From Asterella californica (lineage: Eukaryota; Streptophyta; Marchantiopsida; Marchantiales; Aytoniaceae): a stretch of DNA of 64,000 bases. A program made the translations under genes and the position numbers. Below, in pieces: positions 16,861 through 43,113 of the stretch (positions within the stretch are counted from its first letter, which is position 1; the number at the start of each line of letters is the position of its first letter). The stretch covers positions 27,936,001-28,000,000 of the forward strand of contig JAYKYS010000006.1 of the NCBI GenBank assembly GCA_036924285.1, in the 5' to 3' direction. The notes beneath the pieces are model-generated. The model worked only from the letters and a program-made list of their open reading frames with translations, was not told where the DNA came from and searched no databases.

Positions 16861-16885
16861 CATCTGCAAGGAAACTCCAGATTTC

Positions 16886-18170: not shown

Positions 18171-18357
18171 CTGCTATCTCCTCTTTGACCATCATTGCCG
18201 TTGTAAGATTGGCTCTTCTCTGCTTCTGTCGAACTGGTCTTGTGTTCTCCTCCAATTAGATCTGATGAGTCTCTAGAGTCACCTCCTTCAAATCCTTGTA
18301 ACTGAAAGCAAACATATGGATATATTTTCGAAATATATCTAGGAATCTACTTTTCTC

Positions 18358-22954: not shown

Positions 22955-23097
22955 TCACACTATATCTTCGTCATCTTGATTGATGTTGTCGTTAGCAATA
23001 TTTTCGTCATTCAAATCTTCTCCGTCATCATCCAAGAGATCAAACTCTGCTCCGACTTCCTCCATGCTTATCTCTTCATCTCGCTTCGTGAAGAGTT
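22955..23097 (-). pseudogene. Element C pol, last 47 codons
   Basis: Reads KLFTKRDEEISMEE and an acidic Asp/Asn-rich tail to TGA at 22955. It aligns with the end of the family A pol protein (KLFKKRGE followed by an acidic tail). Its N-terminal side is cut exactly where element B begins. The rest of the gene continues at 42652 with ...ASKRVKL, sharing the 4-bp duplication AGTT. Confidence 0.8.
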
Positions 23098-23599
23098 TGT
23101 CGTGCGCATACACATCGCTATACAACATACATCGCTGTCAAAGGAACACCACACATACACATAACACATGGACGATGTCATACACATACACAAGTGTACC
23201 ACAATAAGATAACAAGGTATGTACTCACTCCACCATGCCAACATGCACTAGACAATCACTACAGTCGAGCCAAATCCACTCTGTGCTCGCAGAGAATCCA
23301 GATCTCACTCACAAGACTACCCACCATAGCCAGGAGCTTGAAGGCTCAACTTGAAGAACTGAGGTCTCCAAGCCCCTACTTGCGAAGTATACCCCTTGTG
23401 GGCACTCTCACCAACTTGCTCTAACGGCCTTACCGGGGTCCGTCACTTCGCACTCAGTCAACCTAGCCGAGTTACCAAACTGACGTGACAGCTGTCGTGC
23501 GCATACACATCGCTACACAACATACATCGCTGTCAAAAGACACCACACATACACATAACACATGGACGATATCATACACATACACAAGTGTACCACAAT
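23098..23599 (-). repeat. 3' end of element B: R-S-R repeat structure
   Basis: A 106-108-bp repeat R occurs at 23098-23205 and 23494-23599 in direct orientation. It flanks a 283-bp segment S (23209-23491) that matches 42369-42651, the start of the 5' LTR. R has no match in the 5' LTR. A standard 3' LTR would repeat the whole 941-bp 5' LTR, so this end is rearranged. Confidence 0.75.
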
Positions 23600-23923
23600 C
23601 GCCTCCCTAACTGGCGGTTAGGTCCCTCTAACTCAAGATAGCTCCATATCTCAACTACGTGATATACACCTTCATGGGTGCAAGGATCAAGAGGCCGGGT
23701 GCTACATTGCCCTATCGTTAGTCGCCTGTCTGCAATCCATACCACGCAAAGATCTAATCAGCTATCCATACTATATATATCGAGGATAAACTCACCGTCC
23801 AATAAGAATGACAGTGAGAGGTGGAGTCAAACATGACATGTGCCAACCTCTCGAACAACCATCACACACCAACATACGGGCTGCTCCACCAGCAGACCCA
23901 CACAACATACACCTCAAGCCTGC
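23600..23923 (-). other. 3' non-coding end of element B
   Basis: No coding content. A purine-rich AGTTAGGGAGGCGA (minus strand, 23600-23613) directly precedes R and is the likely polypurine tract. Confidence 0.45.
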
Positions 23924-25198
23924 TCATACAACTGCCAAGCTTGGGTCAACGATACCATCGATGTTGGGAAGATGACATGGTGCACAATTACGCACATGGT
24001 CCTTCCAAACAACACCATCACGGCCCTCTAACATGAGTACTCCAGAAGGTAACACCTCACGCACTCGTAAAATAGTGCGTCCTGCGGTCACGTCCAACGT
24101 CGTTGGTGCAGTCTGCTGTAGATAGATATAATCGCCAGGATGAAACCTGCGAATCGATGATCGATAACCTCCTCCTCGGATAGTTGCATATCGCAACGTG
24201 TCTCTATGCTGAGCAATCGCTAGATTCTCAAAAGCCATGGGCATAACTCTCCGAAATGTCTCCACTCGTTGAGAACATGCTCTCACCCACATATCCGAGT
24301 CATCAAGGTTCAGCACCTCAGCAGAATCACGACGAATGGCCGAAGGTAGATCTGGATCTCGACCGTATAATAGAAAACACGGTGAGAAGGAAGCCAAAGA
24401 CGCTTGTCGGCTAAAACGGTAACCTATAGTCAACCATGGTAACTACACATCCCAATCTCTCAAGTGGCCCTTCTGCAAGCCATACTTACGCAATCCTCTC
24501 TCCATCGTCTGAACTACCCTCTCCGCCAAATCATCCGTCTCAGGATGATCTCGAGACGTAGTTCGATGATCAATCAACGCCTGATCACACAAGGCCTGAA
24601 ACTCACCAAGGAACTCTGTACCTTGGTCTGTCAGCACTTCAGCTGGTGCTCCAAAACGACTCAGCACTCGATCTAAGAACGCGTACGCCGTCTCTTCACT
24701 CGTCTTGTCTGATAATGCCACCAACTCAATCCACTTAGAGAAGTGCTCCACCATCACCAACACATATCGGTGGTGACGTACGGTCAACGATAAGAGTCTC
24801 GCAAAATCCAAACTCCAATGGTAACCCAACCTCATAATCGATAAGGGGTGTAATTGTGGAGTAAGAGCATTAAACGATGCTCGTACTCGATCACAAATCA
24901 CACATAGTGCGACAAACTGTTGCACATCGACGTGCATACCACGCCACCAATACTGTCCTTGGAGTAAGCTATGCATACGCTTCACTCCAAAATGTCCCAA
25001 CTCCTCATGAGCATGTCGTACTAACTGTGCTCTTTGGGACGTATGTGGAACTATCCGTACTCTCTCATCATCCCACACTCGAAGTACCTGTCGTCCTTCT
25101 CGTCGAAATCTCTTCGCTCGTTGAAGGACACGATCTCGCTCCTTGGCACTTACTGTGCCTACCACCACGCCAGTACGTAGATACTCCATCACGGTCAC
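23924..25198 (-). pseudogene. Element B integrase
   Basis: Two nearly contiguous frames (25198-24443 and 24433-23924). The zinc-binding part has HEELGHFG with HH and CVICD with CC. The core has SLDFARLL (first Asp), LTDQGTEFLG (second Asp) and DDLAERVVQTMERGLRKYG (Glu), so the catalytic triad is present. The C-terminal frame has FLLYGRDPDLP and FHPGDYIYLQQ, the family's basic tail, and ends with TAA/TAG-bounded sequence at 23924. A stop and frame change at about 24440 interrupt the protein. No chromodomain is evident. Confidence 0.85.
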
Positions 25199-25546
25199 AT
25201 TGTCATGGATATCTCGCTGGTTTGGAACACCATCTCCACCCTCAAGATCTGGAGACTCGTCATCTACTCACTCACTTGAGAAAGATACGACTTGGCCCTC
25301 CATACTAGAGTTCATGGCTAACACACAAAGAAAGGCAGATGCATGCCATCTTGGCACTATCTCCTCATCAACCTCGTCATGTCATTGAGCCCCAGTCTGA
25401 TCCTGCTGACTCATGCATGAGTTACGACTCAACCCATCAGCATCTAGGTTTGCAACTCCCGGTCTATGCACTACTTGGAAGTCATACTCTTGTAAGATCA
25501 GAGCCTATCGTGCAAGTTTCCCTGTAAGCTTGTCGGACTCCATCAA

Positions 25547-26776
25547 TCACTTGAGCGACTGGTGATCAGTGATGAGAGTAAAAGGGTTCTCAAACAAGTA
25601 ACATCGGAAGTGTGCAACAGCCCACACTGCAGCTAAACACTCCCCTTCGTACGAACTATATCTTGCCTCCGCCGAATTGTTGGAGCGACTGGCATAAGCC
25701 ACCACAAACTCCTTTTTCTCATCATCATGCTGAGTCAACACTGCTACAAGTCCCAACATACTCCAATCAGTGTGCAGTTGGAAAGGACGTCCCCTAACGA
25801 GTCTCCTTAAGATGGGAGCAGATGTCAACCTATCCTTCAGCTCCACGAAAGCTCGCTCTTGCTCATCTCCCCACTGCCACTCCTGGTCCACCTTCATCAA
25901 CTTGGTCAATGGCTTCGCAATTGCACTAAATTCTTTCACGTATCGACGATAAAAGTTCGCCAAATCAACAAATGCTCGAACTCGACTCACATCTGTGGGG
26001 CGTGGAATACGTGTAATGGCCTCGACCTTCGTCTGTTGAACACCCAACCCACCTGGGTAGATGGTGTGACCCAGATGCTCTACCAACTCCTGGAAGAACT
26101 TGCACTTTCCAAGATGTAACTTCAACCCATGAGCTCTCAACCGCTTGAACCCATCCTGCAAGTGTCTCTCGTGCTCCTCCACTGTAGCACTATAGACTAA
26201 GATGTGATCAATATAGTATTTGGTAAAATCCAATCCTGTTAGGATCTTGTCCATCACTCTTTGGAATTCAGCAGGGGCGTTCTTCAACCCAAATGGTAAG
26301 AACCGCCATTGATACAAACAATCTTTGCCGTGAGAGTCAATCCCTCAGAATGCTGTCTTGGGCTTATCTTCTTCTCTCACCGGCAACTGATGATACCCTG
26401 CTCGAAGATCCAAAGTACTGAAGACCTTCACATGTCTTACTACATCAAAGATCTCTTCAAGTGTCGGCATGGCATACTTATCGGACTTCGTCTGTCGATT
26501 GATAGGACGATAGTCTTCACACATGCGTCTATTCGTGTAGTTGGCATACATATCCTTCTTTGCTGGCATAACTGTGACAGATGCATACTCTCCATGCGAC
26601 ATCTTCACCAACCCAGCTTCCACCAAGTCTTGAGTCTTACTCTGGATCAAAGTTCTCTTCATGTCACTGTATTTGTAAGGACGTCGAAAGATTGGCGTGT
26701 CATTAGCCAAGTCGATCCGTATACCCGGTCCCTTCAAGGTACCCAAATCCTTCGTACTAAAGGTAAAACAATTCAT
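25547..26776 (-). pseudogene. Element B reverse transcriptase / RNase H, active site lost
   Basis: Two frames joined over a stop at about 26345: the RT start (FSTLDLRAGYHQLPV) and the RT core plus RNase H (25547-26317). The catalytic block reads YYIDHILVYS. His at 26204-26206 replaces the second Asp of the usual YIDD, which should abolish polymerisation. The RNase H part has FQLHTDWSMLGLVAVL, VVAYASRSNNSAEARYSSYEGECLAAVWAV and LITDHQSLK. This is a chromovirus-like RT sequence, distinct from D, A and C. Confidence 0.88.
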
Positions 26777-27119
26777 GTAGCTCTTCAGAAATCTTTGAAC
26801 TTTTCATCTCTCCTCTTCTATAAGCTTGGGTCCAATCTCCGGCTCCCAAGTATCTTCTGTCACCATGCTAGAGGTAGAAGACGAAGTTGTTGACTGCTAT
26901 CTTGCAGCCTCTGGAGCAATTTCCTTCTGCTCACCACCAACAACCTCCACCGCTACTATGCGAAAAACTTCTGCAGTTCTAGTTGCAAACTCCACACTCT
27001 CTCTTACGACATTCCATGATGTCCAAAGATGACGAACTTCACGTGCCTCGCCCCCAGCCTTTGCCTCCACTGACCCGATAGGCAAAGAGCTCAGGAGTGT
27101 CCGAGCAGTAACATCCGTC
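26777..27119 (-). pseudogene. Element B linker between methyltransferase and RT
   Basis: Continues the frame that carries the methyltransferase C-terminus (to about 26897), then a short stretch with a stop near 26810 before RT motifs start. No domain recognised. Confidence 0.4.
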
Positions 27120-28220
27120 AATCGCATCCGACGCTGCTCAGCCAATCCAAGACTAACAATCCATGTCAAGCAGTTCAAGTCCATTGCTTGACCCAACACT
27201 TGACGACGTGAAGCCTCCGACACTGAAGCCACTGCCGTTGTACTCGTAGGAAAACCGATCGCTCTTTCTCTCTCGTCGGCATTGGGCTCCACCAACTGTT
27301 GTAATCAAGCATCCCACACAAGCCCAGGTCCTCCATCTTTGTAAGCATGTGACGCTGGAAAGCTCACCAAAGTGGGTAATGCTGCCATAGATCGTCCCAC
27401 TAGGTTCACAACTGCCATGGGTGACCTATCAACGACTCTCACTACTTGAGATCGTCGTCCTGCATCCAAGATGCCATCAACTGTGAGGTGTGTTGGTCGT
27501 CTCACTGCATCGTGTGCGCGCTTGAGCACCTCCCTCGGTAACAAGTTCGTCCACCACAACCGTGGATGATGTGCACGAGATCCCACTCTCGCTGCATCTA
27601 ACAAGACTGCTGGTCCAACCGAAGATCGCACTTGGTGCACACTCGTCATCATATGCGCACGAGCATCACCCAACAAAAGAACGTTCTCCAAGATGTATGC
27701 TGGAGAATCCACTTGATGCATCTGGAGATGTCGTAAGATCCGTAACATCTCCCAGAACATCCTAGATCGCGGATCATGTAAACCTTGACCTCTCCCAGCA
27801 CGCGTGTGACCTTGACATGACCACCCGGCTATCACCAAGTGAATGGTGCCAACAGACGTGAGATCATGTGCCCCCAGCAGCGAAATATTTGACGGTAATG
27901 CTTGCTGGTATCCTCTAACAACTGATATAAGCAACAACTCAGGATATCTCCGCACCAAACGTGCCACGTGACGCAATGAGACACGTCTTGTGATCTCATC
28001 TCTCTCCACATACAAGTATCGCTGTACTTGTATGCTTGCCTGCAATACCGCAGCCAAACCTGTGCTGATCCCATCCAAACAGCTCTAGCACACATACACC
28101 TTCTTTTGGATACTGCCATGCAATGGGAGTCGTATCCAATGGTGTTAAGGTCACATGACCAGTAAAAGGAACACCCCGATGTTCCTCTACTGGCGGTACA
28201 AAGGCTTCACTCCAAGCCTG
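27120..28220 (-). pseudogene. C5 cytosine DNA methyltransferase (DNMT3-like) domain of element B
   Basis: Transfers a methyl group from S-adenosylmethionine to cytosine C5. Visible motifs in order: motif I ELFG + GISTGLAAVLQA (28120-28040), motif IV VIAGWSCQGHT with catalytic Cys at about 27815-27817, GLHDPRSRMFWEMLRIL, motif VI PAYILENV, then VLLDAARVGSRAHHPRLWWTNL, which resembles the DNMT3 block DAKEVSAAHRARYFWGNL. The C-terminal RAIGFPTS...SEASRRQVLGQAMDL (27270-27150) matches motifs IX-X. Three defects: TAG at the junction with the protease frame (28221), an extra base splitting motif I (about 28079), and TGA at 27302-27304. Motif IV has Ser where Pro is nearly invariant. It sits between protease and RT in the same strand and order as the retroelement genes, so it is part of the element and not a host exon. 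Confidence 0.88.
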
Positions 28221-29519
28221 CTATATCAACCGATCAGCATACTGCTGCAACTCTCCACTCGAACTCCAGAGTGGAACATCTAAAGCAGATGGTACTAATG
28301 TAGACATGATAGGCATGTCCTCCACCTCCTCAAAAACTGGAGTATTCTCCGCATGGACATTGCCCTCTAACAACTCCTGAGGCCAAGTGATGACCGAACT
28401 GAACCCTACAACGGATGCCATCGTCCCTGATGTAAGCTCCGTTGTCCCAATTCTAGCACTGAACCGCACTGGTAAGCGGCTCACTCGTCTCTCATCGGAC
28501 TGCCAACCCGGTTTGTAAGATGATGTCTCCGCCCAATAGTCGACCACGAATCCCATAAGATATAATACAGCACCTCCAACCAATACATCATAAGACTCCG
28601 TGGCCGTAACGATAGCCTTGGCCCTCACCGTAGAACCATCCGTGGGATGATCTGGTCTAACTCTCACCGTCAGCAACTCGCATGTCATGTGTAGAGTTGT
28701 ACCTCCTGATCTCCCTAGAGATGTCTGTAGCTGGAATGGACATCTCTCTACTTCGGACTTCCTTAGACCCAAACTGATACACGCCGCCTTCTCCAACATC
28801 AACGATTGGACTCCAGAGTCTAACAACACTTTTTGTGGTCGATACACTTTCTCTGAAGGTGCCACCAAACAGAAGATACCACTTCTGTTGTCCAGCAACA
28901 CCACACCTGGTGCCAATCCAGCACGGTCAATTGCCGGCCTAGTTGGTAACTCATCTAGTCTGGCAGTCGCCGCTTGCCAAGTACCACTAGTAGCTGTCCT
29001 GATCTTCGATTCCATGGACACATCTACCGCCTCTTGCTGAACCACCTCAGCACTAGAGGTAACCACATCCTCGCTCTCACTGAGCGTGGTTGCCAACTGG
29101 AACACTGGAGCCAAGCTGACTCCCAATGCCCTCATATCCGTGGCTGAAAATAGTGAGGCTCGCAAAACTACTGTAGCCGCCTCCAACATCGGGTTCGACA
29201 TCGCATCCACAAACGTCGAGGGTTGACTCGCATTATCCCCACTCTTGGATGTCGATGCCTCGAACTCCACTGCACCATCGGTAGGCCGTTTAGGAACCAT
29301 AGAAGTGATCCTCAATGCCTCTGATAGCGTGAACGATTGAGGAAGTCTGGTCTGTCTACCAACCTCTCCGCGTTGTGGATCCAACTCCACTGACGCACCT
29401 CGTGGCTCAGAGATACGTACTGCACTCCGAGTCACTGCCGCAGATGCCTCAATCTGCGTCACACCAGCCATCGAAGTCACCTCCTTCTCCTCCATAAGAC
29501 GTGGAAGCTTCTGTTCCAC
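28221..29519 (-). pseudogene. Element B aspartic protease region
   Basis: Open for 432 codons. A long Ser/Thr/Ala-rich N-terminal half is followed by QKVLLDSGVQSLMLEKAACISLGL (about 28800-28840). This is an aspartic protease active site (D-S-G), with ILVGGAVLYLMGF-like sequence near 28560 as the second conserved block. The frame ends in TAG right before the methyltransferase part, which continues in the same frame. The stop could be a mutation or a read-through codon. Confidence 0.7.
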
Positions 29520-30923
29520 CAGATCTCCGTTGAGCCATAGCCATACTAGCTATCCTCTGCTCCAACTGCTCAATCCGAGCAGCCATACCTGCTTTTGACG
29601 TCGTAGCAAGCGGTGGACCAACTGATCCTCTCTCAGGGGCTGGACCTCTATCTCCAGCTCGACCACCACGGCCTCCATGGGCTCCTCCGTCTCGTCCACG
29701 ATCAGCCTTCTCTTGCCGTAGCTCTGGATGGAGATCAAAACAACGGTCACTATTGTGACCTGGTCGTCCGCAATGATCACACTGCCTAGGCACTGCTTGA
29801 GACGTCCCAGATGTCTCATAACCACCTCTCCTTTATGGACAGTCCTTCTGTTGATGAGGACCATCACAGGTCCAGCAAGGACTTGCTTGTTGTTGACTAG
29901 AGAAGGACGGCATGGGCTTCTGCCCACTAGATCCTCCAACACCTCCATGGGATTGTGAGTGCTCAGCACGATCCTTACCACCACCACCACCACGCTGTTG
30001 CGTAGCCTGTGATCCTCGAGAAAAGAAGGTCGCCCCATGTGATGCGTCTCTGCTGAACCCAACAGTCACCACCCTCTCTTCTATCATGTTGAGCTCAATC
30101 CGCTCAGCCAAACCAAAGACAACCGCCAATGTCGGAGCGGTGTCTCTAAGGAGAGTGGCATCTCTAACTCTCCTACGCAGCTCCCGATCTAGTATCCCAT
30201 ACCAGAACTAGAATGCTTGTGCTTCCGTCACTCCTTGAGTAACGCTGATCAACCGCCTCATGCGAGTAAACGCCTCGCGTAGGCTCTCTCCAGTCTTCCG
30301 CTGGAACTCCTGCAGACTCTTCAACTTGTCGGTCCGCACACCTTGATAATTTTTCCTCAAACAGTGGAAGAATTGAACCACAGGGTTAAACCCTGGTGGT
30401 ATCCCGCTCGCACTATCACCTGCTCCACTACTAGTGGACGCACCGCTAGTAGCAGGTACTCCGCCACCCGTGGATGTACCACTGCTACTGACACCCAAAG
30501 TCGTAAATGCTACACCTCCCAAAATTGCACCAGTAGTGATAGAACGTAGTTGAGAGACCAATGTTGTCTCCACAACTCAATCTCAACACTGTAGTCTCGC
30601 CTGAACTCGTGGTAATCGTCCATCGGCGGTCCCTCCAAGTGCTGAAACAAACCCTTCCACGCCATGAAAGATGTGAACAATTGTGGATTCCGCATCTGTT
30701 GCAGATCGCACCAACTGTCAAACTCTTGGATGAAGTCATCCAGCTCAATGATACTCACCGTACCCGAATAACGTCGAGGTCCCTTCGTGGTCCCATAGAT
30801 CTCGTCCACGTCCCACAACAACGATGTGACGACACTAGACTCACCACCAGAAAACGCATTGTCTGCGTCTGACTCGTCCTCTGGAACAACCAACGGCAAT
30901 GGTGTAGGTAGTCGGTACCTCAC
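29449..30923 (-). pseudogene. Element B gag with two zinc knuckles
   Basis: The N-terminal part starts at ATG 30923 (MRYRLPTPLPLVVPEDES) and shows the retrotransposon gag fold signature FVQF..., with LKSLQEFQRKTGESLREAFTRMRRLI in the next frame (30208-30573). Two CX2CX3-4HX4C knuckles follow: CWTCDGPHQQKDC (about 29850) and CDHCGRPGHNSDRC (about 29770). They are separated by a stop at 29830 and by Gly/Arg-rich linkers. At least one frameshift (about 30540) and two stops break it. Confidence 0.8.
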
Positions 30924-31640
30924 CCCACTCCGTGTATATCCACTGTTCGAGAAGTCTCCACCAGAACCTCTCGAGAACTCCGTGGTGATAGAATCTCACG
31001 GACGCACTCTCTAACCAGAATGTCGAAATCCTCGTCACCACCGTAACTACAACTTGCCTATCCCCGCTCCTACTGAGCTCACTTATCCTCTACTAGGATA
31101 GTCAAGGTAAGGGCAACCTGTACCTGCCATCACCGCAAGCAGCCTCTCACGGTCTGTTGGTCGTCACTCCAACTGCACCGTGAGAGAAACAAAGGTAGTC
31201 TGACTGGTCATCATTCCAGCCTCACTACCGACAGCACACTAGAGTGAACTCACTCTAGAAATCAAGCGCCAACACAAGCAAACGTGACGCACAAACAGGA
31301 AGCAAAATATGGAGAGGTTCCAACCACAAGAAGTCCAAACGATAACCCTCCACACTCAAACATTCACATAAAGAGAAACCCAGCCCCGCCCGGACTGACC
31401 CGTCTTCTTCGGTGACCACATGCACAATATATGATCACCGACTGTTATAACCTATGCCTCATGTCACTAACTAGATGTCCATACCTCTAGTAGCTCCAAA
31501 AATATCAACGTGATAGCTCTACTAGCTCATCCAAGACAATTGCCACCAATTGCCTCCATACGCGTCTTTACGATACAAGCAAACACTAACACAACAGCAG
31601 CTTCCCCCTAGTACTATGGGGTCGCCCTACCACTCCTCTA
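30924..31640 (-). other. Element B leader, upstream of gag
   Basis: Non-coding between the gag start and the pol III-like patch at 31720-31800. Frames here are short and without signatures. Confidence 0.4.
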
Positions 31641-31721
31641 GGAACGGGCGAGCAAGTCTCCTACTATCTTAAACCAGCTCCTAAGTACTTGCACGCATCC
31701 CTGTAGGACACCAAGAGCTAT

Positions 31722-31799
31722 TGGTCTTAGTGGTAAAGCCAAAGCTAAGACTACAGAGTTAGGAGTCCAGGTCCAGAAATAGTGTTGGGATGGGTGACC
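31722..31799 (+). repeat. Pol III promoter-like patch (tRNA/5S-like), possible SINE remnant
   Basis: TGGTCTTAGTGGTAAAGC (31722-31739) resembles a tRNA A box. GGATGGGTGACC (31788-31799) is identical to the box C region of plant 5S rRNA, and AATAGTGTTGG just before it resembles AGTAGTACTAG. The rest of 5S is absent, so it is not a 5S gene. It lies in the leader of element B, in the opposite orientation. Confidence 0.4.
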
Positions 31800-32496
31800 A
31801 ACTAGTTTTGCACTTCCCACACAACTGGAACTTGGATACCTATCTCACGCACGCCAGCAAGCTGGCTTGCGCGGACGCGGGCTCAGGCTCTGCTCCGCCT
31901 CCGCACTCTCGCACTCCGCTCTCACGCCTCCGCACTCACGCACCTCTGCTCCTCGAAGCCTCTAAACGCCTCCTAACACTCCCGCTCACTCTTCGCTCCG
32001 CTGTCGTGTTGTACATGGGTCTGTACAGTGAAAACTAGTTGCAAGGAGATCTTTTCTTTGTTGTGTAAAGGAAGCTGCCCTGCAGCTTAACAAGCTAGGC
32101 AGGAGCTAAGCTGGGGCCATGCTTGACAAGCTGCCCCCTAGCTTGGGTTGGAGTATCACCCCTAAGGGATTCGAAAGACACCAGGATGTAAAGCTCGACG
32201 AGGAGAGCGACCTCATGCTTCTAGTTTTGACAGAAAGTGTTTTAAGCAATAGTTAGTACGAGTTTTAGGCTATGAAATATGTGAAAGAGGGAAATTCGTC
32301 GATTCTGACTCGAGACTCGAACTCAGAATCTGATAGCGTGGGTGTGTAGGTGTTCCTGAATACTATAGTTTTGACTCCTTATTCATTAAAAACGGAGTTG
32401 TATAGAGAAGTTAGCACAGAAAAGGCTAGTAAAGACTTTACAGGAAAATTTCCTTAGTAAAGCATATGTACAAACTGTAAAAGCTGTTTGAACGGA

Positions 32497-32650
32497 ACTA
32501 GAGGCCATCCCAGTGATAGGGCGCCTGCCTAGGAGGGAAGTGGTCTCAGGATCAATCCCTCCTGGCCTCTGGTTCCTATTCTGGCATGTTGGCCTCCCGG
32601 ATGGGAGTCTATGTTGGGTATTCAACCATGTCCTATATACCTAGGGGCGG
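32497..32650 (+). repeat. tRNA-derived SINE-like module in the LTR
   Basis: CCAGTGATAGGGCGCCTGCC (A-box-like, from 32510) and GGTCTCAGGATCAATCCC (B-box-like, about 32542-32559) are spaced as in a tRNA gene. The same module is in the 3' LTR near 40342-40495 and, reversed, in the A2 LTR at about 56060-56215. It was therefore part of the ancestral family A LTR. Confidence 0.6.
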
Positions 32651-32698
32651 GAGACCGGTATCTCCCTTAATCGTGGGCTTCCTGACCTAAGCCTCCGC

Positions 32699-32829
32699 AT
32701 GCCATCCTGAATATACTATGGGAGATACCTGGTGCGCATATGGGGGGGTTGTAAGCCCTGTGGGGCAGCCTCATAAGTGTAGGGGCTTCGGCCTACATTG
32801 GATGGCTTGTAGTATATTCAGGATGGCAT
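32699..32829. repeat. Foldback pair in the LTR, 20-bp arms
   Basis: ATGCCATCCTGAATATACTA (32699-32718) is perfectly complementary to 32810-32829, 91 bases away. The same structure is at 40544-40674 in the 3' LTR and, slightly changed, near 55870-55995 in A2. It could be a small inverted-repeat (MITE-like) insertion or a hairpin of the element RNA. Confidence 0.85.
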
Positions 32830-33550
32830 CAAGATGGCATCAAGAGCACAGGAAACTTTTGCTAAATAGTTAAATAATCATCGAGGTTATGTGAACCTTT
32901 ATCAGTGTAGGGATAGAGTTTGTAGAGACAACTGCGAAACTTATATTAAAAAGGGGTCAACTTTGTAAAAAATGCTTTGTACGCATAAGGACAGCAGGGG
33001 GGCAGCTTAAGCTGGGGCCTTAACTTTTAGGTTTAATACCTGCGGCGGCTAGAGATCGGGGACACTTTTTCAAAGGAGTTTTCTGAGAGAACTGAGGCGG
33101 AAGGAGAAAAAAGGAGCAGAATTAGGGATTGAGGAGAGGAGACGCTGAGAAGCTTGGAGGCTGAGTGAGGATCGATTTTTCCAGAATTGAGTAGAATTGA
33201 ACGGACAGAGGTGGTTTACTGGAAGGAGATCATTTTTGACAAGGCTTTGGTTGTCGTAAGATCAAATTCCTTGGAATTTTCAGCTGAGAAGTACTTAGGA
33301 GAGGAGGAGAGAGATATTTTCTTAACAATGAAGCAGTTGACACTGAAATAAAGCCATTTCTACTCCGGAGAGATATATTTGTGTACTTGAGTGAGTGCTT
33401 GAGTGTTTGTTTGCAATTGGTGGGCACAAGAGACTGTGTTTTTTAGATTTCATCGTCTGCAGCGACCTATCTTCCTTTCTGGTCATTTCTCTCTGATCTA
33501 TCACAGTCAGGAGGTCCGCCCTCCCCAAGAAAGACTCCCGCCACGACATC

Positions 33551-33569
33551 TGGTGCTTCCACTGAGAGC
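33551..33569 (+). other. Primer binding site of element A
   Basis: TGGTGCTTCCACTGAGAGC, two bases after the LTR end. It begins with TGG, complementary to a tRNA CCA end. The identical site occurs in A2 at 62966-62984. The tRNA could not be named by eye. Confidence 0.7.
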
Positions 33570-33613
33570 AATTGGGGTGATCGATTTGGAGAATTGGCTA
33601 GATTGGGTGGAAA

Positions 33614-36202
33614 ATGGATCACAGTGCTGCTGTACAGGGTGCGGCTGCTGCTCAGGGTGCTCCTGTCCAAGGGACTCCTGGTCAGGATGGAATTGGCTCT
33701 CAAGGAGGACCTACGGCGATTCCAACAGCAGCAGCACAGCCTGCCATGGACACGTCTTAGGTTCTTCAGGCGTTGGCTGCCTTGATTCAACAACAACCTG
33801 CAATTGGAGGAGCTGAGCAGAAATCTACGAAGGCGTTACAAGCAATTGTTGGTCGATGTGGGCGATTTGATGGAAGAGATGTTACTAGGTACCTGCGGTA
33901 GTATGTAGGTGAAATGGAGTTGGTCAGGGCACCTGAAGTTGAGGTAATTCTAAGCTTTGAGTTGACTGTTGTCCCTGAATTGAGAGAGAAGGTTAGAAAT
34001 TTATAGAGAAGACATTTAGGTGGGTGGACTTTGTTTGAACGTGCACTGAGAGAAGAATTTCTAGAAGAGGACTCTGAAAGAGTCACCAGAAGAACTCTCA
34101 TGGATTGGATAGAGCGTCAGCTTGGACGTTCCATGGGATTGAATGAAGTGATCCGTGAATTTGAGAAGAGGTACTCTCAGCTTTTTGGTCTAGAGAGGTT
34201 GACGTTGGATGCTAGGAAGACAGAGTTGTTCTTAGGGGCTCTGGATGAGTTCACAGCAGATAGGCTTTGTTTCATGTTGGCTGATCGAGGGGCTGAAGGG
34301 GGAGTTACATCTGATTGGAGGAGAGTAGAAGAAGCAATATCCACCCTTGCTAGACAACGTCGTGGTAGGATGGTACTGCAGCCAGAGACCTTACCAGAGC
34401 AAAGAGTAGCTCCTCATGTTCCTGTAGCTCCTCCTGCAATACCTCAAGCACCTATTGTGATTCCTCAAGCACCTATAGTGGTTCCCCAAGTGGTTCATCA
34501 AGCGCCTGCAGTACCTATTCCAGCACAAAGAGGACCTAGACAGCAGCAGCGACCTGTTGAGAACCGAAATCAACATAACTTGATAGAAGAACTTACTCAA
34601 CAGTTGAGAGATTTGAGGGTTGAGATGGCAGACTTGAGGAGAGATCAACGACCTGTTGCACCAGGTGCCCGACTTGTAGGAGGAACCTTTACCAGGAGAT
34701 GTATTTGGTGCGATAGTCCAGATCATCTCAGAGGAGACTGTCAAGACTTGGCGGTTGCCTTGCGAGAGGGCGTAGTCAACTATCAGAACAACAGGTTGTA
34801 TCTAACCGCCACAGGGCAGCCTCTGAACACATATTTTGGAAGAGGAGGAATGAGGAGTTCTCTTCCAGCACTTACTGGTGCGAATACTACAGCGATGACT
34901 GCGGGTCCTGCGGAGGCTGATGTATATACTGGGAGAGTTGAGGTGCGCTCTAATCCAACTATGGTTGAGCAGGCTGTTGAGGTTCCGGTTGAAATGATGA
35001 AGAGAGGTGCTGAAAGCATTAGGAGAGCTACTGGATGGAGAGACCCAGTAGATGCAACTTCTATTCGAGCGTTTTTAGAGACGAGTGGTGAACAAGATGC
35101 CATGATCGAAGACAAAAGAAGACGAGACGCTTCCGATTTAGATGTAGGAGTACCAGAGGACAATGACCGTCGGAGGGTTACAAGGAGGAGAGCAGCGGAA
35201 CCATCACCATCTGTACCAGCTGGAAGATTTCCTGCTGCAGAGGATATACCTTCTACCTCTACAGCTCCACCACCTGCAGTAGATCCTATGGAAGGTGTAC
35301 AGGATTTGCCACAAGAGACTACTGCTACAGATAGGGTACGGGGAAAGAGGTTTACAGCACAGGAGAAGGGAAAAGCTCCAGCTTACAAGTTAGCGGCTGA
35401 CATCGAAACAACAACAGACTTGCGTGCTGTTCTAGAGCAACGCATTTTGGATGCTAGAGTTGAGTTTACTCTTCGTGAAGTGCTTGGTATCGCAAAGAGA
35501 GAGTTTCATGAGTTGATAATAGACATCATGAAGAGAAAGAGACAGGTATTGACTGAACAAGTAAGTAGTCAGATGGTTGGAGCAGTAGATGCTATTGGTG
35601 TTGATCAGTTCGGAGATGATAAGTATGAGGCATGGGTTGCTGGTCCTGTTGTTATTGAGAATGAAGATGAAGAGTATGAAGAGGATGGGTCAGGCGCAGA
35701 CAGCGATTTCAAGGAGAAGCACTGGGCAAGAGCGACAACAGAGACGCAAGTTCGGCTTGGAGGACTTTCTGAGCCAGTACCTGCACTTGTGGATCACGGG
35801 TCGGAGATCAACATCATTTCCAAGGAGGTGTATGAAAAGGGACAGTGGCCAATCGAAAGGAATCATGGTTGGGTGCTTAGAGCTGTAAATAACCAAAAGG
35901 GTGAGTTATACGGAGCTTGTCCCAATATGCGTGTAAGGATTGGGGATGTAGAGGTTGATCAACATTTCTTTGTACAGTCATCTGCCTCCTATCCTGTCAT
36001 ACTGGGCCAACCATACATCACCGCTGTTCGGATGGAGACAAAGGTGATGAACGATGGGTCTCATTATGCTAGAGTTCGGAGTCCTGATGACAAGTACTCA
36101 GTACAGTTTTTGACGGTTCGTTCAAGACATGAGCGGAACAGACAAACCCTTAGAGATTCTCAGACGAAGAGATGTAAGGTTTTTCGCAACCCACTCCTGT
36201 AG
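33614..36202 (+). pseudogene. Element A ORF1: gag-protease, three TAG codons in gag
   Basis: Reads from ATG at 33614 (MDHSAAVQG) in one frame to TAG at 36200-36202, 862 codons. In-frame TAGs at 33758, 33899 and 34004 correspond to Gln or Glu codons in the A2 copy; after 34006 the frame is open for 731 codons. The gag N-terminus is Gln/Ala-rich. The capsid-like part has VVPELREKV and NEVIREFEKRYSQL. A zinc knuckle CIWCDSPDHLRGDC is at 34700-34741. The aspartic protease has LVDHGSEINIIS (D-H-G at 35792-35800) and SYPVILGQPYI. A start downstream of the TAGs (ATG at 34031) would give only part of the capsid. ORF2 overlaps the end in the -1 frame. Confidence 0.88.
36178..36184 (+). promoter_or_regulatory. 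Putative -1 frameshift site of element A (GGTTTTT)
   Basis: In the ORF1 frame this reads AAG GTT TTT CGC, five codons before the ORF1 TAG. A -1 slip joins ORF1 to the ORF2 frame. The A2 copy has the canonical X-XXY-YYZ heptamer GGGTTTT at the same place, so this copy probably carries a one-base change that weakens the slip. Confidence 0.6.
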
Positions 36203-39200
36203 AGCGGGAAGACAGGGGTGTAGAACCTACTGTTGAGGTCCCGTCAGAGTTGGAAGCGAGACATGTACAAAGGTCTGGATACATGTGTGGTGTACAGAGT
36301 TGGCAGTCTGGATTGCTGATGTTTGAGACAGATGGGTGGAGTCGATTTACAAGAGTTGAAGATATGGAGGAAAATACAAAAAGATGGATGGTGAAACAAG
36401 TATCAGGGTTGTGGCGTGTAGGAGTTCTATCTGAAGACGAAGTGGTTTCTGGTTTGTTTGAAGAGTTTATGTCTGTACAGTCAGCTGTTGGTTGGTTAGA
36501 CAATGTGAGTAGATTGATGGAGGGGAAAAATAGTGTGGTGGTGATCCCTATCCACTCTCGATGCATATATAAGGAGATTGCTACATACTTGCAGTTCTTT
36601 CCTCATCCGATGCAGAATAATGAAGGGAGAGAAGCAAGTTGTTGGTGTGCACTCCCTCAGGAAGCAGACGTCCATGCGAAGTACAAATCTGTACTGAGAA
36701 AGGTAAGACCGGTAGCAGCTCAACTACCTGCTAACTCCCAGCAGCAAGTACAGTTAGTGGAGACTGAACCTATATTGCGTGATCATAGACGAGTAGGGCA
36801 CCAGTTTACTGAGGAGACATTGAAGGAGCTCCAGATAGGAGGGGGTGAATTCTTGACTGAGGTCGAGAAGACAGTGTTTGAACAGATGGTAGTAAAGCAT
36901 GGTAAAGCATTCTCTTTTTCAGCAGAGGAGATAGGTTGTGTGGACCTGCAGGTTATAGCACCTATGGTTATATTCACAATCCCTCATGTGTCTTGGGACC
37001 TAAAACCGATCCCAGTTCCTCGTGCTTTATTGCCTAAACTCATCGAGTTGTTGAAGGAGAAGGTACAGATGGGGATACTTGAGCCGTCTATGAGGCCATA
37101 TTCTAGCAGGTGGTTCACTGTACCCAAGAAGTCAGGAGCTTTGCGTTTTATTCAAGACCTACAGCCTGCGAATAACGTAACAATTCGTAACGTTGGGACG
37201 GGTCATGTGATTGAAGAGGTAGCAGAGGCATTTGCAGGGAGAGCTATCTATTCGATAGGAGATCTATATTCTGGTTATGATCAGTTCCAGCTGGCTGTGG
37301 AGAGTAGGGATTTAACTACTATGCGTACGCCCTTGGGATTGATGCGGATGTGTACTCTTCCACAAGGAGCAACGAACTCGGTGGCTCATATGCAAAATGC
37401 GATGCATAAGGTACTAAGGGAGTTTGTGCCTGATGTTACCATTCGGAATCTAGACGATATTCCCATAAAAGGTTGCGCGGTTGAAGACAAGGATGAAGCA
37501 GTACTTGTGAATGGATGCAGAAGGTTTGTTGCAGACCATATCAGGGATGTAGAACGTATCTTGACTCGCTTGGAGGAGGTACATCTCACCCTGTCAGGAG
37601 CTAAGTCCAAGTTTGGTGTGTCTGAGATTTTAGTGGTTGGACATTTGTGTGGAGCTTTTGGAAGACGACCAAACCCGGAGAAGGTTGAAGCCATAGCTAG
37701 GATGGCAGACTGTAGGAATATCACAGAGGTTCGATGTTTTCTAGGTGCTTGCGTATTTTATCGGTTATCCATTCCTCATTATGCTCATGTTGCTGAGCCT
37801 TTGTATGCATTATTGAGGAAGGGTAAGCGGTTTGTATGGACCTCAGTCCATCGAGAAGCTATGAATAGGTTGAAGGAGGCTCTACAGTCTCCGTCTGTTT
37901 TGAGAAGAATAGACTATGGATGTGGGAGACCTGTCATTGTCACAGTAGATACTAGCCCAAAGGCAATTGGCTGGGCGATAGGTCAAGATGATGCGGATGG
38001 ATTGCGGCTTACCTCTAGGTTTGGAGCTAGGATCTTGACAGACAGGCAACGAGATTATCCTCAGGTGAAGCGTGAGTTGTGGGGAGCGGTGACAGCAATG
38101 AAGACAGATCGTGAGTTTCTGATTGGTGCTCATGTAATCCTGGAAACGGATTGTCTACCTCTACTAGGCATGATATCCAACTGTACCACGCCAGACATAG
38201 CAATGTTACGTTGGATTGCCTATATTAGAAGCTTGAATCTAGAGCTGAAGCATATAAAGGGAAAGGAGAATATGGTTGCAGATATGTTGTCAAGGGCTCG
38301 ATTTGTGGATGAGGATGTCATGATTTCAGAAGCTGAGGAAGAAGAGAGAAAGGATGCTCAGTGTCAGGTTAATCGACGGGCTACAAACTTGGAGCCGTTG
38401 ATGTTTAGAGAGGAGCTTTACACAGGTAGACTTCGTGACATAAGATATTATCTGAGCTTGTTGGAGAGGCAGGAGAGATGGAGCAAAGTAGAGTTCAGGG
38501 AGATAAGAAAACAAGCTTACAACTATCTTCTGCATGATGGGTATCTTTGGAGACGACCACAGAGGAGAGATGGGATGTTCATGCGGGTAGTGGACGATCA
38601 AGAGACTAAGCAGCAACTAATGAAGGAGTTCCATGATACCTTATGGGCCGGACATCGAGGGATTTGGGCTACCTACACCAAGTTGAAGGAGAGGTACTGG
38701 TGGAAAGGTCTGTACCAGGATGTGGTGAACTACGTCAGCTCCTGTTTGCATTGTCAGTTCTACTCAAAGATCCGATACAGGGACGGTCTTGTGCCAACTT
38801 ATCCGCCTTGCATTCACTTCCAGTGGGTTCTCGACTTGATGGTAATGCCTCTGGGGTTATGGGGCATGCGATATTTGGTTTTGGCTCGTGAGGATCTCTC
38901 CAACTTTGTAGAAGGACGAGCTTTGAGAACGAAGACCACAGAAGGGATATGTAAGTTTGTTCTTGAGGATATTATCTGTAGATATGGGTCTGTAGGAAGG
39001 CTACGGGCAGATAGAGGAGAACTACGTGGTACAGAAGCGAAAGAGTTTTTTGCTCGATATGGTGTGAAGCTCAAGCTTACCACTGCGATGAATCCAGAGG
39101 GGATTGGCAAGAGTGAGCGAGGACATCCGTCAATAGTTCAAGCTTTGGTGAAGACGTGTGATGGTAAGCATAGAGAGTGGCCTAGATTACTCCCTTTTGC

Positions 39201-39801
39201 TTTATGGGCAGATAGAACAACTCATTGTTCTACTACAGGGTACATGCCTGTTGAGTTAATGTTAGGGCAGAAACCAATGATGTCAGCAGAAGAAGACTTT
39301 CCTACCTGGGCTACCTTGCCATGGGAGGACAATGTGGACCGTGTGCAACTTCTCTCACTAAGAATCAGACAGCTAGAATGTAGAGAGGAGGATCTCGCTG
39401 AAGCGCAGCGACGGCTGAAAGCGGCTCGACTTGGGAACAAGGAAAGGTTTGATAAGACTCATAGACTTCGGCCAAAACTGATACAAGTTGGGGATTGGGT
39501 GTTGGTATACGACAGCACATTGGAGAACCAACACTCTACAATCCGAAAGTTTTCGAGAAGGTGGTTTGGCCCGTACCTTGTCTCTGATGTACACCAGAAT
39601 GCTACTTATTCCTTACAAGAGCTAGATGGCACGTCTTTAAGACTTCCAGTTGTTGAGAAACGAGTTAAGTTATTCAAGAAGAGAGGGGAGGCTGTGGAGC
39701 TAGCTGAGTTCTTAGGTTCAGAGCAGACAGGAGCAAATGAAGACCTTTCTGAGACGGTCGAGGAGAGCCAAGACGATTTGGAAGACCACGACGATCGATG
39801 A
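36185..39801 (+). CDS. Element A ORF2: reverse transcriptase, RNase H, integrase
   Basis: Open to TGA at 39799-39801; 1183 codons if counted from the first ATG (36250), but expression is expected by frameshift from ORF1. RT: FTVPKKSGALRFIQDLQ, YSIGDLYSGYDQFQL, LPQGATNSVAHMQN, and active site RNLDDIPIKG (about residue 400). A2 has PFLDDIPIKG, so the residue before Leu-Asp-Asp has become Asn here. RNase H: VTVDTSPKAIGWAIGQ, KRELWGAV, LETDCLPLLG and MVADMLSR, with all acidic residues. Integrase: zinc-binding FHDTLWAGHRG and SCLHC, then LDLMVMPLG, RADRGELRG and NPEGIGKSERG as the D, D, E set. WFGPYLV is the GPY/F module and the C-terminus is acidic. No chromodomain. Confidence 0.92.
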
Positions 39802-39832
39802 CGGATTGGCACATACCAGAGGATGTGCAGGT

Positions 39833-39846
39833 TTGGAGGGGGTGAA
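39833..39846 (+). other. Polypurine tract of element A
   Basis: TTTGGAGGGGGTGAA directly before the 3' LTR start TGTCGTG. Confidence 0.75.
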
Positions 39847-41604
39847 TGTCGTGTTCTACATGGGTCTGTACAGTGAAAACTAGTTGCAAGGAGATCTTTT
39901 CTTTGTTGTGTAAAGGAAGCTGCCCTGCAGCTTAACAAGCTAGGCAGGAGCTAAGCTGGGGCTATGCTTGACAAGCTGCCCCCTAGCTTGGGTTGGAGTA
40001 TCACCCCTAAGGGAGTCGAAAGACACCAGGATGTAAAGCTCGACGAGGAGAGCGACCTCATGCTTCTAGTTTTGACAGAAAGTGTTTTAAGCAATAGTTA
40101 GTACGAGTTTTAGGCTATGAAATATGTGAAAGAGGGAAATTCGTCGATTCTGACTCGAGACTCGAACTCAGAATCTGATAGCGTGGGTGTGTAGGTGTTC
40201 TTGAATACTATAGTTTTGACTCCTTATTCATTAAAAACGGAGTTGTATAGAGAAGTTAACACAGAAAAGGCTAGTAAAGACTTTACAGGAAAATTTCCTT
40301 AGTAAAGCATATGTACAAACTGTAAAAGCTGTTTGAACGGAACTAGAGGCCATCCCAGTGATAGGGCACCTGCCTAGGAGGGAAGTGGTCTCAGGATCAA
40401 TCCCTCCTGGCCTCTGGTTCCTATTCTGGCATGTTGGCCTCCCGGATGGGAGTCTATGTTGGGTATTCAACCATGTCCTATATACCTAGGGGCGGGAGAC
40501 CGGTATCTCCCTTAATCGTGGGCTTCCTGACCTAAGCCTCCGCATGCCATCCTGAATATACTATGGGAGATACCTGGTGCGCATATGGGGGGGCTGTAAG
40601 CCCTGTGGGGCAGCCTCATAAGTGTAGGGGCTTCGGCCTACATTGGATGGCTTGTAGTATATTCAGGATGGCATCAAGATGACATCAAGAGCACAGGAAA
40701 CTTTTGCTAAATAGTTAAATAATCATCGAGGTTATGTGAACCTTTATCAGTGTAGGGATAGAGTTTGTAGAGACAACTGCGAAACTTATATTAAAAAGGG
40801 GTCAACTTTGTAAAAAATGCTTTGTACGCATAAGGACAGCAGGGGGGCAGCTTAAGCTGGGACCTTAACTTTTAGGTTTAATACCTACGGCGGCTAGAGA
40901 TCGGGGACACTTTTTCAAAGGAGTTTCTGAGAGAACTGAGGCGGAAGGAGAAAAAAGGAGCAGAATTAGGGATTGAGGAGAGGAGACGCTGAGAAGCTTG
41001 GAGGCTGAGTGGGGGATCGATTTTTCTGCCAGAATTGAGAGGATTGAGGAGAGGAGACGCTGAGAAGCTTGGAGGCTGAGTGGAGATCGATTTTTCTGAC
41101 AGATTTTGAGTGGATTGAGGAGAGGAGACGCTGAGAAGCTTGGAGGCTGAGTGGGGATCGATTTTTCTGACAGATTTGAGTGGATTGAGGAGAGGAGACG
41201 CTGAGAAGCTTGGAGGCTGAGTGAGGATCGATTTTTCCAGAATTGAGTAGAATTGAACGGACAGAGGTGGTTTACTGGAAGGAGATCATTTTTGACAAGG
41301 CTTTGGTTGTCGTAAGATCAAATTCCTTGGAATTTTCAGCTGAGAAGTACTTAGGAGAGGAGGAGAGAGATATTTTCTTAACAATGAAGCAGTTGACACT
41401 GAAATAAAGCCATTTCTACTCCGGAGAGATATATTTGTGTACCTGAGTGAGTGCTTGAGTGTTTGTTTGCAATTGGTGGGCACAAGAGACTGTGTTTTTG
41501 AGATTTCATCGTCTGCAGCGACCTATCTTCCTTTCTGGTCATTTCTCTCTGATCTATCACAGTCAGGAGGTCCGCCCTCCCCAAGAAAGACTCCCGCCAC
41601 GACA
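39847..41604 (+). repeat. 3' LTR of element A, with repeat expansion
   Basis: 1758 bp, TGTCGTG...CACGACA. It is nearly identical to the 5' LTR except for about 211 extra bases formed by three additional copies of a roughly 70-bp unit at 40970-41240. Confidence 0.92.
40970..41240 (+). repeat. About 70-bp unit, four tandem copies
   Basis: Copies start with GGATTGAGGAGAGGAGACGC at about 40970, 41041, 41113 and 41182. The 5' LTR has a single copy at about 33129-33190. Confidence 0.9.
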
Positions 41605-41710
41605 CCGCTCCGCTTGGAGAAGAGTAGAACTCGGGTCAAACACCACAAGAAGGACGAATACGACGAGAAAATACCCAAAACAGCAACTCGGGGTCGAAAT
41701 TGCACCAAAT
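41605..41710 (-). other. Element B leader and primer binding site
   Basis: The minus strand from 41707 reads TGGTGCAATTTCGACCCC, three bases after the LTR end TTTCGACA. It starts with TGG and fits a tRNA 3' end. Element A inserted about 100 bases downstream of it. Confidence 0.6.
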
Positions 41711-42651
41711 TGTCGAAATCAGTCAATTTGGAACTCGCAGACGGGATTTACGTCAGATTTTGGCCAACCCGTGATTTTCTTCGGCTTGTAACTTCGTCGA
41801 TCCTTCACCAAATCGAACGATTTTGGTTGCGTTGGAATCGTCTTCCCAGCGTGCATCTACTGCACTCCTCAGATCCAAAGATTATCGACCCACGCCAACC
41901 TGACACTAGCCGACGCACTTCTGTTGACCTAAAACCCGTCACAAAACTCGTCACCAGAAATTTCGACTTCTCATAACTCAAAAACGACTCGACCAAACTT
42001 CGTGAACCTTCGTGCACTAGGACCATCTTCCCAGCGCGCTTCCAACGAGCCCACATCGATCTGACATTGTCGACTATTTCGTCTGCCACGCCCAAATGCG
42101 CACTTCAGCCCGAAACAGGTCACTTCAACGCATTCCGTGAAGTTTCAGCAGCGCTTCCGCACTACCTCACCACCAAATCGACTGCAAACAAGTTCAGACG
42201 ACACCCATCCACACAGCGATCGATCACAACACCAAAACGAACCACTTCGCGCACGTGCGCACTCGCAAATCGAAGATACCAACGATCTGCCAACTCCAGA
42301 GATACCACCGGCAGCAATCTACGACCTGAAATCCCTAAACCAGACCTCGCAATCCGAGTTCTTCAAGTGATAACAAGGTATGTACTCACTCCACCATGCC
42401 AACATGCACTAGACAATCACTACAGTCGAGCCAAATCCACTCTGTGCTCGCAGAGAATCCAGATCTCACTCACAAGACTACCCACCATAGCTAGGAGCTT
42501 GAAGGCTCAACTTGAAGAACTGAGGTCTCCAAGCCCCTACCTGCGAAGTATACCCCTTGTGGGCACTCTCACCAACTTGCCCTAATGGCCTTACCGGGGT
42601 CCGTCACTTCGCACTCAGTCAACCTAGTCGAGTTACCAAACTGACGTGACA
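41711..42651 (-). repeat. 5' LTR of element B
   Basis: On the minus strand it runs from TGTCACGTCAG (42651) to GATTTCGACA (41711), 941 bp, followed by a TGG primer site. Its first 283 bp (42651-42369) match segment S at 23209-23491, with few differences. Confidence 0.7.
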
Positions 42652-43113
42652 AGTTTCACACGCTTGCTTGCAATGGGAACCTTGAGCTCTGCCCCATCAA
42701 GCTCTCTTAGTGAATATGTGGCATTGTCAAGCACGACAAGAATCACATATGGGCCAAACCATCGCTTAGAGAATTTTCTAAGCGCACTGTGTTGGTTGTC
42801 CAAGCTACTATCGTAGACCAACACCCAATCTCCTTCTTAAATCTCCTTCGGCATTAATCGATGACGCTTATCGAATCTGTCCTTGTTTCTCAAGCGCGCC
42901 TCTTTCAGCTTCTCTAATGCAATCTCTACATCTTCAGGTCTTCTCTCTAGTTGACGGAGATTCGGATTCGGACAGCAAGAAGATCTTCTGTAGACATACC
43001 ATCCTCCCAAGGTAGAACACTCCAAGTGGGTATGTGCTTCTCAATGGGCATGATAGGTTTCTGCCCATGCATCAACTCCGCCGGCATATATCCCGTAACT
43101 GAACTATGAGTCG
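42652..43113 (-). pseudogene. Element C integrase C-terminal part
   Basis: Two frames: HSSVTGYMPAELMHGQKPIMP and onward (43108 down), then GDWVLVYDSSLDNQHSALRKFSKRWFGPYV to ASKRVKL at 42655. They align with GYMPVELMLGQKPMM, DWVLVYDSTLENQHS, RRWFGPYLV and EKRVKL of element A. The fragment starts exactly where the plus-strand C copy stops (53958) and ends at the AGTT duplication of element B. Confidence 0.85.

Follow-up and report, generated by a model that had tools for sequence, protein, structure and literature searches.

The window analysed here, a 64,000-nucleotide (nt) stretch of contig JAYKYS010000006.1, carries on its minus strand a Ty3/Gypsy retrotransposon that encodes its own C5 cytosine DNA methyltransferase (DNMT) and spans positions 23098-42651. 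This liverwort element is real and of the KnitGypsy-Dnmt3 kind; it has a different host and three features that find no mention for that element in the passages compared: an apparently leaky stop codon after the DNMT, a PHD finger, and seams that look end-joined. Taken as a whole, the best explanation, which is held to be probable, is a liverwort Gypsy family with (i) the DNMT at the end of the Gag-protease open reading frame (ORF), (ii) a leaky stop codon behind it, and (iii) integration of end-joined complementary DNA (cDNA). The window copy is best read as a decayed member of a young and very successful Ty3/Gypsy family.

A preliminary description, made from the letters alone, had placed a C5 DNMT between the protease and the reverse transcriptase (RT) of a Gypsy element, and the searches bear this out. 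The ORF at 27305-28084 on the minus strand matches the methyltransferase profile PF00145 (E 3.2e-6, 27.2 bits, cut-off 22) and, in the PDB, DNMT3A (E 7.6e-7), and the domain lies between the protease (28940-28461) and the RT (26716-25907). The conventionally named motif blocks I, IV (Cys), VI (ENV), VIII, and IX-X listed in that description are all present, in unrearranged order. Its assignment to a DNMT3-like type also holds: the AlphaFold model of residues 941-1310 of L013, an open copy elsewhere in the assembly (pLDDT 88.5, pTM 0.88), matches the DNMT3 fold, with all 50 of the 50 Foldseek matches listed being DNMT3 (best E 2.1e-19, with a target-length TM of 0.85). DNMT3A is likewise the best PDB match of a profile built from 18 gag-protease-DNMT relatives (E 2e-13), with HaeIII at 2.7e-7, HhaI at 8.4e-6, and 4onj, listed as a DNA methyltransferase and taken here to be a DRM, at 4.4e-5. 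In these PDB comparisons by profile and fold, made without a tree of CMT, DNMT1, and DNMT2, the DNMT3 group is the closest among C5 enzymes. De novo type activity of the element enzyme, proposed earlier, is plausible by this kinship.

The host's own C5 genes provide a second yardstick. PF00145 was run against the assembly (123 of 1250 candidates scored), and three places that match from the beginning of the profile onward were read: L055 is a host DNMT3-like gene (best PDB matches DNMT3C/B/A), and L056 and L057 are DRM-like by motif order. A profile of the retroelement DNMTs scores 55.8 bits with the joined DNMT3-like exons, 39.3 with the first exon alone, and 36.5 and 29.4 with the DRM-like pieces. 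The DNMT3 link thus appears clear by fold and modest against the host's own gene.

The assembly searched consists of 773 contigs totalling 516.7 Mb. Of 3700 first-look candidates, 147 were scored in a protein search, each with at least 89% identity, and these numbers are lower bounds; 44 of the 147 display, by hand count, an open frame of at least 1363 amino acids (aa) with no stop in the match. A 31-base junction pattern has 586 exact matches, a few pairs of which are close enough to belong to one element, and decayed copies are missed by it; the reversed control gave 0. The preliminary description had taken the window copy as dead, as its broken frames confirm, and had expected intact relatives elsewhere in the genome, where many open, recent copies are indeed present. 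Of the 147, twenty copies in which the DNMT frame is open were fetched. Their ORF1 measures 1369-1371 aa in 19 and 1266 aa in L009, and ORF2 (RT, RNase H, H2C2, rve, and PHD) is open over 1038-1041 aa in 13; in L013 ORF1 the first Met is residue 64, followed by the zinc knuckle at 409, the protease LLDSG at 729, and the DNMT at about 970-1288. The two copies of repeat A, A1 and A2, were compared in 19 element copies, L020 with its disrupted A2 being set aside, and show no difference over 294 nt in 11 of them.

Ratios of nonsynonymous to synonymous substitution (dN/dS) over 171 pairs of 19 copies, L009 being left out, are 0.204 for the DNMT, 0.214 for gag, 0.194 for the protease, and 0.585 for the stretch after the protease; the tail after the DNMT gives 2.4, with a very small number of changes. 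The pol domains, compared over 78 pairs of 13 copies, give 0.054 for RT, 0.357 for RNase H, 0.212 for integrase, and 0.050 for PHD. Motif IV GWPCQG and LENV are present in all 20 fetched copies, and the exact motif VIII and IX-X strings in 19 each; motif I of L013 reads LELFGGIS, and the pattern LDLF is for this reason found in none of the 20. The window copy reads GWSCQG in motif IV, keeping the catalytic Cys. Taking this P-to-S change as proof of death is unsafe, as ten relatives without the Pro still keep the Cys (P0151, P0152, P0155, P0157, P0163, P0165, P0166, P0168, P0170, and P0171).

ORF1 ends with TAG, and in open copies the same frame continues as ORF2, from RT onward. The sequence TAG CAG TCA is found in all 20 fetched copies and in the window copy, and among the 100 places listed of the 586 junction matches the stop position reads TAG in 98, AAG in one, and GAG in one; the TAG at 26899-26897 was accordingly rejected as a lesion and is a family feature. 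A distant relative, L051 (CADCWO010000201.1), is a 9.3-kb contig whose ORF1 encodes gag-protease-DNMT, 34% identical to the liverwort family, with an in-frame ORF2 of RT-RNaseH-integrase-PHD whose first Met lies inside RT; it carries TAG CAA TCA at the same position. The readthrough consensus of the tobacco mosaic virus (TMV) type is UAG CAR YYA (PMC3542737). By sequence, both UAG-CAG-UCA and UAG-CAA-UCA fit this consensus, and the hexamer with an open frame beyond it is found in both the liverwort family and L051. The hexamer looks selected, because the nucleotides after it differ between the two. The UAG after the DNMT would thus be a leaky stop in a TMV-type context, and if readthrough is the route, the DNMT would be made with Gag and not only with Pol.

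The architecture of the window copy was traced with two open relatives. Domain queries from L013 (tblastn) match from gag to PHD, all on the minus strand, with 86-94% identity in several frames, and the L011 element aligns to 42651-42425, 42161-41988, 31943-24872, and 24673-23097. The element, previously ended at 31640, hence continues to 42651: the alignment breaks at 31943 and resumes at 41988, which places a plus-strand Gypsy of about 10 kb (~31944-41987) within the leader. Repeats at 23208-23490 and 42369-42651 are 98.2% identical (283 nt), and AGTT flanks both outer ends as a 4-bp target duplication, which fixes the true ends. The family displays the order A1 - gag/protease/DNMT - UAG CAG UCA - RT/RNaseH/integrase/PHD - polypurine tract - B1 - GC - A2 - B2, with TG...CA termini, starting with TGTCACG (A1) and ending with GCACGACA (B2). 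The order Gag, protease, RT-RNaseH-integrase is that of Ty3/Gypsy elements. Two plain terminal long terminal repeats (LTRs) were not found in the element, which shows A-X-B-A-B split repeats instead, and the interval 23098-23600, earlier taken as a simple LTR, comprises B1-A2-B2. The 4-bp target duplication is present in 10 of 10 fetched copies with both flanks read (nine others are without the 3' flank, and L020 was again set aside). The features of the window copy are as follows:

42369..42651, minus strand: A1, 5' copy of repeat A, element start TGTCACG at 42651 (98.2% to 23208-23490; L011 match)
41988..42161, minus strand: leader piece upstream of the nested insertion (77% match, L011 element positions 494-667)
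31944..41987, plus strand: nested Gypsy without DNMT that splits the leader, boundaries approximate (alignment break; ORFs, repeats)
29800..30809, minus strand: gag, two frames, broken (tblastn with the gag part of L013 ORF1, 86-93%)
29686..29805, minus strand: zinc knuckle CDHCGRPGHNSDRC (tblastn 90%; ORF translation)
28461..28940, minus strand: aspartic protease region, LLDSG (tblastn 87%)
27110..28115, minus strand: DNMT3-like C5 cytosine methyltransferase domain, frames broken, motif IV GWSCQG (PF00145 E 3.2e-6; tblastn 91-93% to an open copy)
26897..26899, minus strand: TAG stop then CAGTCA, putative TMV-type leaky-stop context, in frame with RT in open copies (sequence; same in 20/20 fetched copies)
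25907..26716, minus strand: reverse transcriptase (RVT_1; tblastn 89%)
25457..25906, minus strand: RNase H (Pfam; tblastn 94%)
23927..25096, minus strand: DDE integrase, H2C2 and rve (Pfam; tblastn 92%)
23774..23941, minus strand: PHD finger, end of pol (tblastn 86%; PF00628 E 6.7e-11 in L013 ORF2)
23600..23613, minus strand: polypurine tract agttagggaggcga directly before B1 (sequence)
23493..23599, minus strand: B1 repeat (repeat comparison)
23491..23492, minus strand: GC spacer in the palindromic B1-GC-A2 joint GACAGCTGTC (sequence)
23206..23490, minus strand: A2 repeat with the A2-B2 seam (repeat comparison)
23098..23205, minus strand: B2 repeat, element end ...GCACGACA at 23098 (repeats; L011 alignment)
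23094..23097, no strand: target-site duplication AGTT, low side (flank sequence)
42652..42655, no strand: target-site duplication AGTT, high side (flank sequence)

The joints between the repeats highlight how the element may be inserted. The family polypurine tract agttaggggggcga stands directly before B1, and the B1-GC-A2 joint GCACGACAGCTGTCACG is identical in all 20 fetched copies and the window copy; L051, too, contains ACGACAGCTGTCACG, which by visual inspection follows a G-rich tract and a B of ~106 nt. At the centre of the joint, GACAGCTGTC is a perfect palindrome, GACA-GC-TGTC. Cut after GACA in each strand, it would give CA-3' ends with staggered 2-nt overhangs, as integrase processing does, and neither end of the insertion retains the GC spacer. 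In retroelements the polypurine tract sets the left cDNA end; here the tract precedes B, and the cDNA is expected to begin with B, yet the insertions begin with A. Among 32 A2-B2 joints read (in 19 of the 20 fetched copies and 13 of 20 further stretches), 26 are plain, five are scarred, and L072, with another A variant, is unclassed. The scars comprise (i) one extra nucleotide in L010, L017, and L063, (ii) 22 extra nucleotides with GCTCGAT repeats in L014, and (iii) GTTAGGGGGGCGA in L027, the polypurine tract itself retained in the joint. The seam of the window copy differs from its own A1 end by a few bases, and the A1-leader and B1-A2 joints are invariant in the 20 fetched copies. A tract retained at an end joint is a trait of 2-LTR circles. 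The A2-B2 joint probably represents joined cDNA ends, and its scars suggest an integrase that opens an end-joined circle or concatemer; a concatemer would leave seams like those of a circle.

The proposed mechanism starts with translation, where most ribosomes would stop at the UAG and make Gag-protease-DNMT in excess, the enzyme presumably entering the particle at the level of Gag, and where leaky reading of UAG-CARYYA would supply some Pol fusion. Reverse transcription would then yield linear DNA of the form B-A-X-B-A, with the left end set by the tract before B. The ends of this cDNA would be joined, as a circle or a concatemer, and integrase would make a staggered cut in GACA-GC-TGTC inside the repeat, inserting A-X-B-A-B. 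The DNMT most likely methylates this cDNA de novo, either ahead of insertion or during it, and the PHD finger may guide the integration complex towards histone H3; the use of the methylation to the element we can only infer. Methylation of cDNA has been discussed as a self-mark or as protection (PMC5890265). A broader proposal, given slightly less than even weight and put forward tentatively, is a streptophyte-wide Gypsy lineage with a DNMT3-like enzyme at Gag stoichiometry, self-methylated cDNA, end-joined circles or concatemers opened at an internal palindrome, and an A2-B2 seam kept in every insertion.

Several observations weigh against the mechanism as proposed. As the scored copies resemble one another, many of them being recent, the shared stop could be mere descent, and L051 is the only independent test of the stop context. 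The dN/dS values come from copies picked for open frames, with small divergence. As to the seams, the retained tract is found in a single copy (L027), the scar count includes L063, with its A1 unread, L069 shows an A2 without B2, six of the 20 further stretches missed the A2-B2 joint, and L060 and L062 share a flank and may be one duplicated insertion. The first exon of the host DNMT3-like gene, taken alone, scores below a phage enzyme (41.8 bits), so that the kinship with DNMT3, as measured against host genes, leans on the joined exons. Finally, a CG-specific decay expected of self-methylation was looked for in the window copy compared with L013 and not found: transitions amount to 14.2% at CHG, 10.5% at CG, 7.8% at CHH, and 4.3% at A/T. 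The window's Gypsy pair without DNMT shows the same order of C contexts, so that host methylation would explain the decay, which says nothing for self-methylation. The corresponding values for L003 and L004 against L013, which mostly represent subfamily differences, are 8.3% and 9.5% at CG, 8.6% and 8.1% at CHG, 6.1% and 5.9% at CHH, and 5.3% and 4.4% at A/T; L002 and L006, whose rows were wrongly oriented, do not count here.

Other explanations bear on single parts of this scheme. The element could be the published KnitGypsy-Dnmt3 system in another host, with DIRS-like split repeats, a DIRS-like circular template, and nothing new in expression or integration; the domain set and the A-coding-B-A-B order are as published, and the repeats are said to be as in DIRS (PMC5890265). 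This is unlikely for an element with a DDE integrase, TG...CA ends, and 4-bp duplications, in which the tyrosine recombinase that marks DIRS was not found and an rve DDE integrase is present instead. Nor does the internal-template model of DIRS predict a polypurine tract immediately upstream of B1 that is also kept in one A2-B2 joint. As for the stop codon, a plain ORF boundary, with ORF2 made by reinitiation or from a spliced message, would accord with ORF2 of the fetched copies having Met as codon 11 downstream of the stop and with some Marchantia gene models (P0124, P0127) that join DNMT and RT in one protein, as splicing would. It is improbable, as the two families share the same frame, UAG-CARYYA is kept at 34% protein identity, and L051 lacks a Met before RT.

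The role of the enzyme is likewise subject to two further readings, each of them rather improbable. C5 enzymes can act on RNA, and the DNMT might methylate RNA or host chromatin and not its own cDNA, with the PHD finger bringing the fusion to chromatin. RNA action is also discussed for a LINE DNMT in PMC5890265, where de novo CG methylation by retrotransposon DNMTs is reported, which together with the fold, that of DNMT3, a DNA enzyme, favours methylation of DNA. Alternatively, the DNMT might be useful to the host, slowing transposition or helping to silence the family in a domestication-like truce, a possibility raised in the Discussion of PMC5890265; a family of hundreds of copies, with A1 and A2 identical in 11 of the 19 compared, does not look strongly self-restrained, and the dN/dS of the DNMT is like that of gag and protease. 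Self-methylation of the cDNA is retained as the preferred reading.

Relatives among the matches listed are annotated in Marchantia, Riccia, Calypogeia, and Sphagnum, with one in Closterium and one in a bacterial genome record, judged to be a contaminant. Vascular plant relatives and Klebsormidium-named rows are absent from the matches listed (120 of 136, and 57), most rows of which bear no organism, and viral_contigs gave two distant, phage-type matches among 30 pattern matches. L051 is filed under a cyanobacterial genome and is evidently a eukaryotic element; its two ends share a 127-nt overlap, as expected from a repeat-collapsed circle. P0169, filed under a Minisyncoccia record, is a similar case.

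Trees were built from 29 chosen relatives with L013, L051, and a phage enzyme, leaving out as too short P0150 and P0133 (DNMT) and P0150 and P0163 (RT). Both the DNMT and the RT tree split class I (protease-DNMT-RT) from class II (RNaseH-DNMT-integrase), with support of 98/96 for DNMT class I (with P0165 and P0177), 99/98 for RT class II, and 83/59 for RT class I. Class I comprises the liverworts, L051, P0151, Closterium, and others, and class II comprises P0152-P0155, P0157-P0159, P0162, P0163, P0166, P0168, P0170, and P0171. Closterium P0173 groups with the liverwort-family clade in DNMT (98/96) and with P0151 in RT (100/97). The agreement of the two trees indicates that enzyme and pol travelled together within each class, and either one DNMT capture with a move or two captures would account for the classes. 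The class II proteins P0154, P0158, P0163, and P0166 have, downstream of the PHD finger, a segment in which DPW and TSPW/LSPW-like motifs are seen by eye, perhaps a second, amino-methyltransferase; Pfam gave no such match for P0158.

The charophyte host suggested in the preliminary description is not borne out. The host is, by plastid matK, a complex thalloid liverwort: the closest sequences are of Marchantiopsida (81-89% over 73-99% of length), with identities of 83% to Wiesnerella, 86% to Dumortiera, 82% to Riccia, 81% to Marchantia, and 82% to Conocephalum, and 89% over 75% of length to a record labelled Fossombronia mylioides; no species matched exactly. Lunularia was rejected as the host, its matK being only 76% identical. 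Contig G000:C367 holds two opposite-orientation matK copies and several contigs hold more, so that the assembly includes plastid contigs.

The remainder of the window contains (i) at 31944-41987 and 54094-63300, two opposite-orientation copies of another Gypsy family without DNMT, their long arms 92-94% alike; (ii) at 16057-19931 on the minus strand, a third Gypsy remnant whose RT, RNase H, and integrase are ~29-43% identical to the DNMT element family; (iii) at 54813-55886 and 63737-64000, dense tandem repeats, stepping by 45/19 nt, close to an end of the second Gypsy family; (iv) at 20766-22891 and 46436-48642, further inverted repeats, ~90-97% alike, outside the elements described; and (v) at 1649-2131 on the minus strand, an open frame of 160 aa, apparently for a small non-transposon protein that may resemble DUF952.

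Among known systems, the nearest is KnitGypsy-Dnmt3 of Klebsormidium nitens (de Mendoza et al. 2018), a Gypsy element with Dnmt3, an A-coding-B-A-B order, and purifying selection at Ka/Ks <0.2, whose repeats are described as in DIRS (PMC5890265). The earlier comparison with published charophyte elements was apt in kind: the two share the Gypsy domains, a Dnmt3-type DNMT in the polyprotein, the A-coding-B-A-B order, and a low dN/dS. The liverwort element, compared by description only, differs in its land-plant host and its 586 exact junction matches, and further in features that carry no mention for KnitGypsy-Dnmt3 in the passages of that source compared, namely (i) the DNMT on the gag-protease side of the putative leaky stop, (ii) the PHD finger, and (iii) the TG...CA ends, 4-bp duplications, and joint scars; the terms "readthrough" and "split direct" do not occur in the main text of PMC5890265. 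The liverwort element appears, by this description, to be a close land-plant cousin of the green-alga element. Among the titles and abstracts listed from the open literature, subscription papers lying outside this scope, PMC5890265 is the only report of DNMT-bearing elements like this; such elements are mentioned in PMC12344493. SymbioDIRS-Dnmt3 of dinoflagellates shares a Dnmt3-type DNMT in Pol and the A-coding-B-A-B order, and belongs to another element class, with a tyrosine recombinase whereas the liverwort element has a DDE integrase (PMC5890265). De novo CG methylation has been reported for such enzymes, SymbioDIRS being active and SymbioLINE inactive (PMC5890265).

Plants silence transposons by methylation; that this element nonetheless prospers with a DNMT maintained under selection is a paradox, which the liverwort and Marchantia copies bring into culturable land plants. 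The integration step proposed here resembles that of foamy virus, whose integrase cleaves a palindrome on 2-LTR circles to give processed ends (PMC1180852); the foamy virus palindrome is the LTR-LTR joint, whereas the liverwort palindrome is internal to the repeat and the inserted copy retains the end joint. If the seams are read correctly, joined cDNA, usually seen as a retroviral dead end, would be the normal substrate here.

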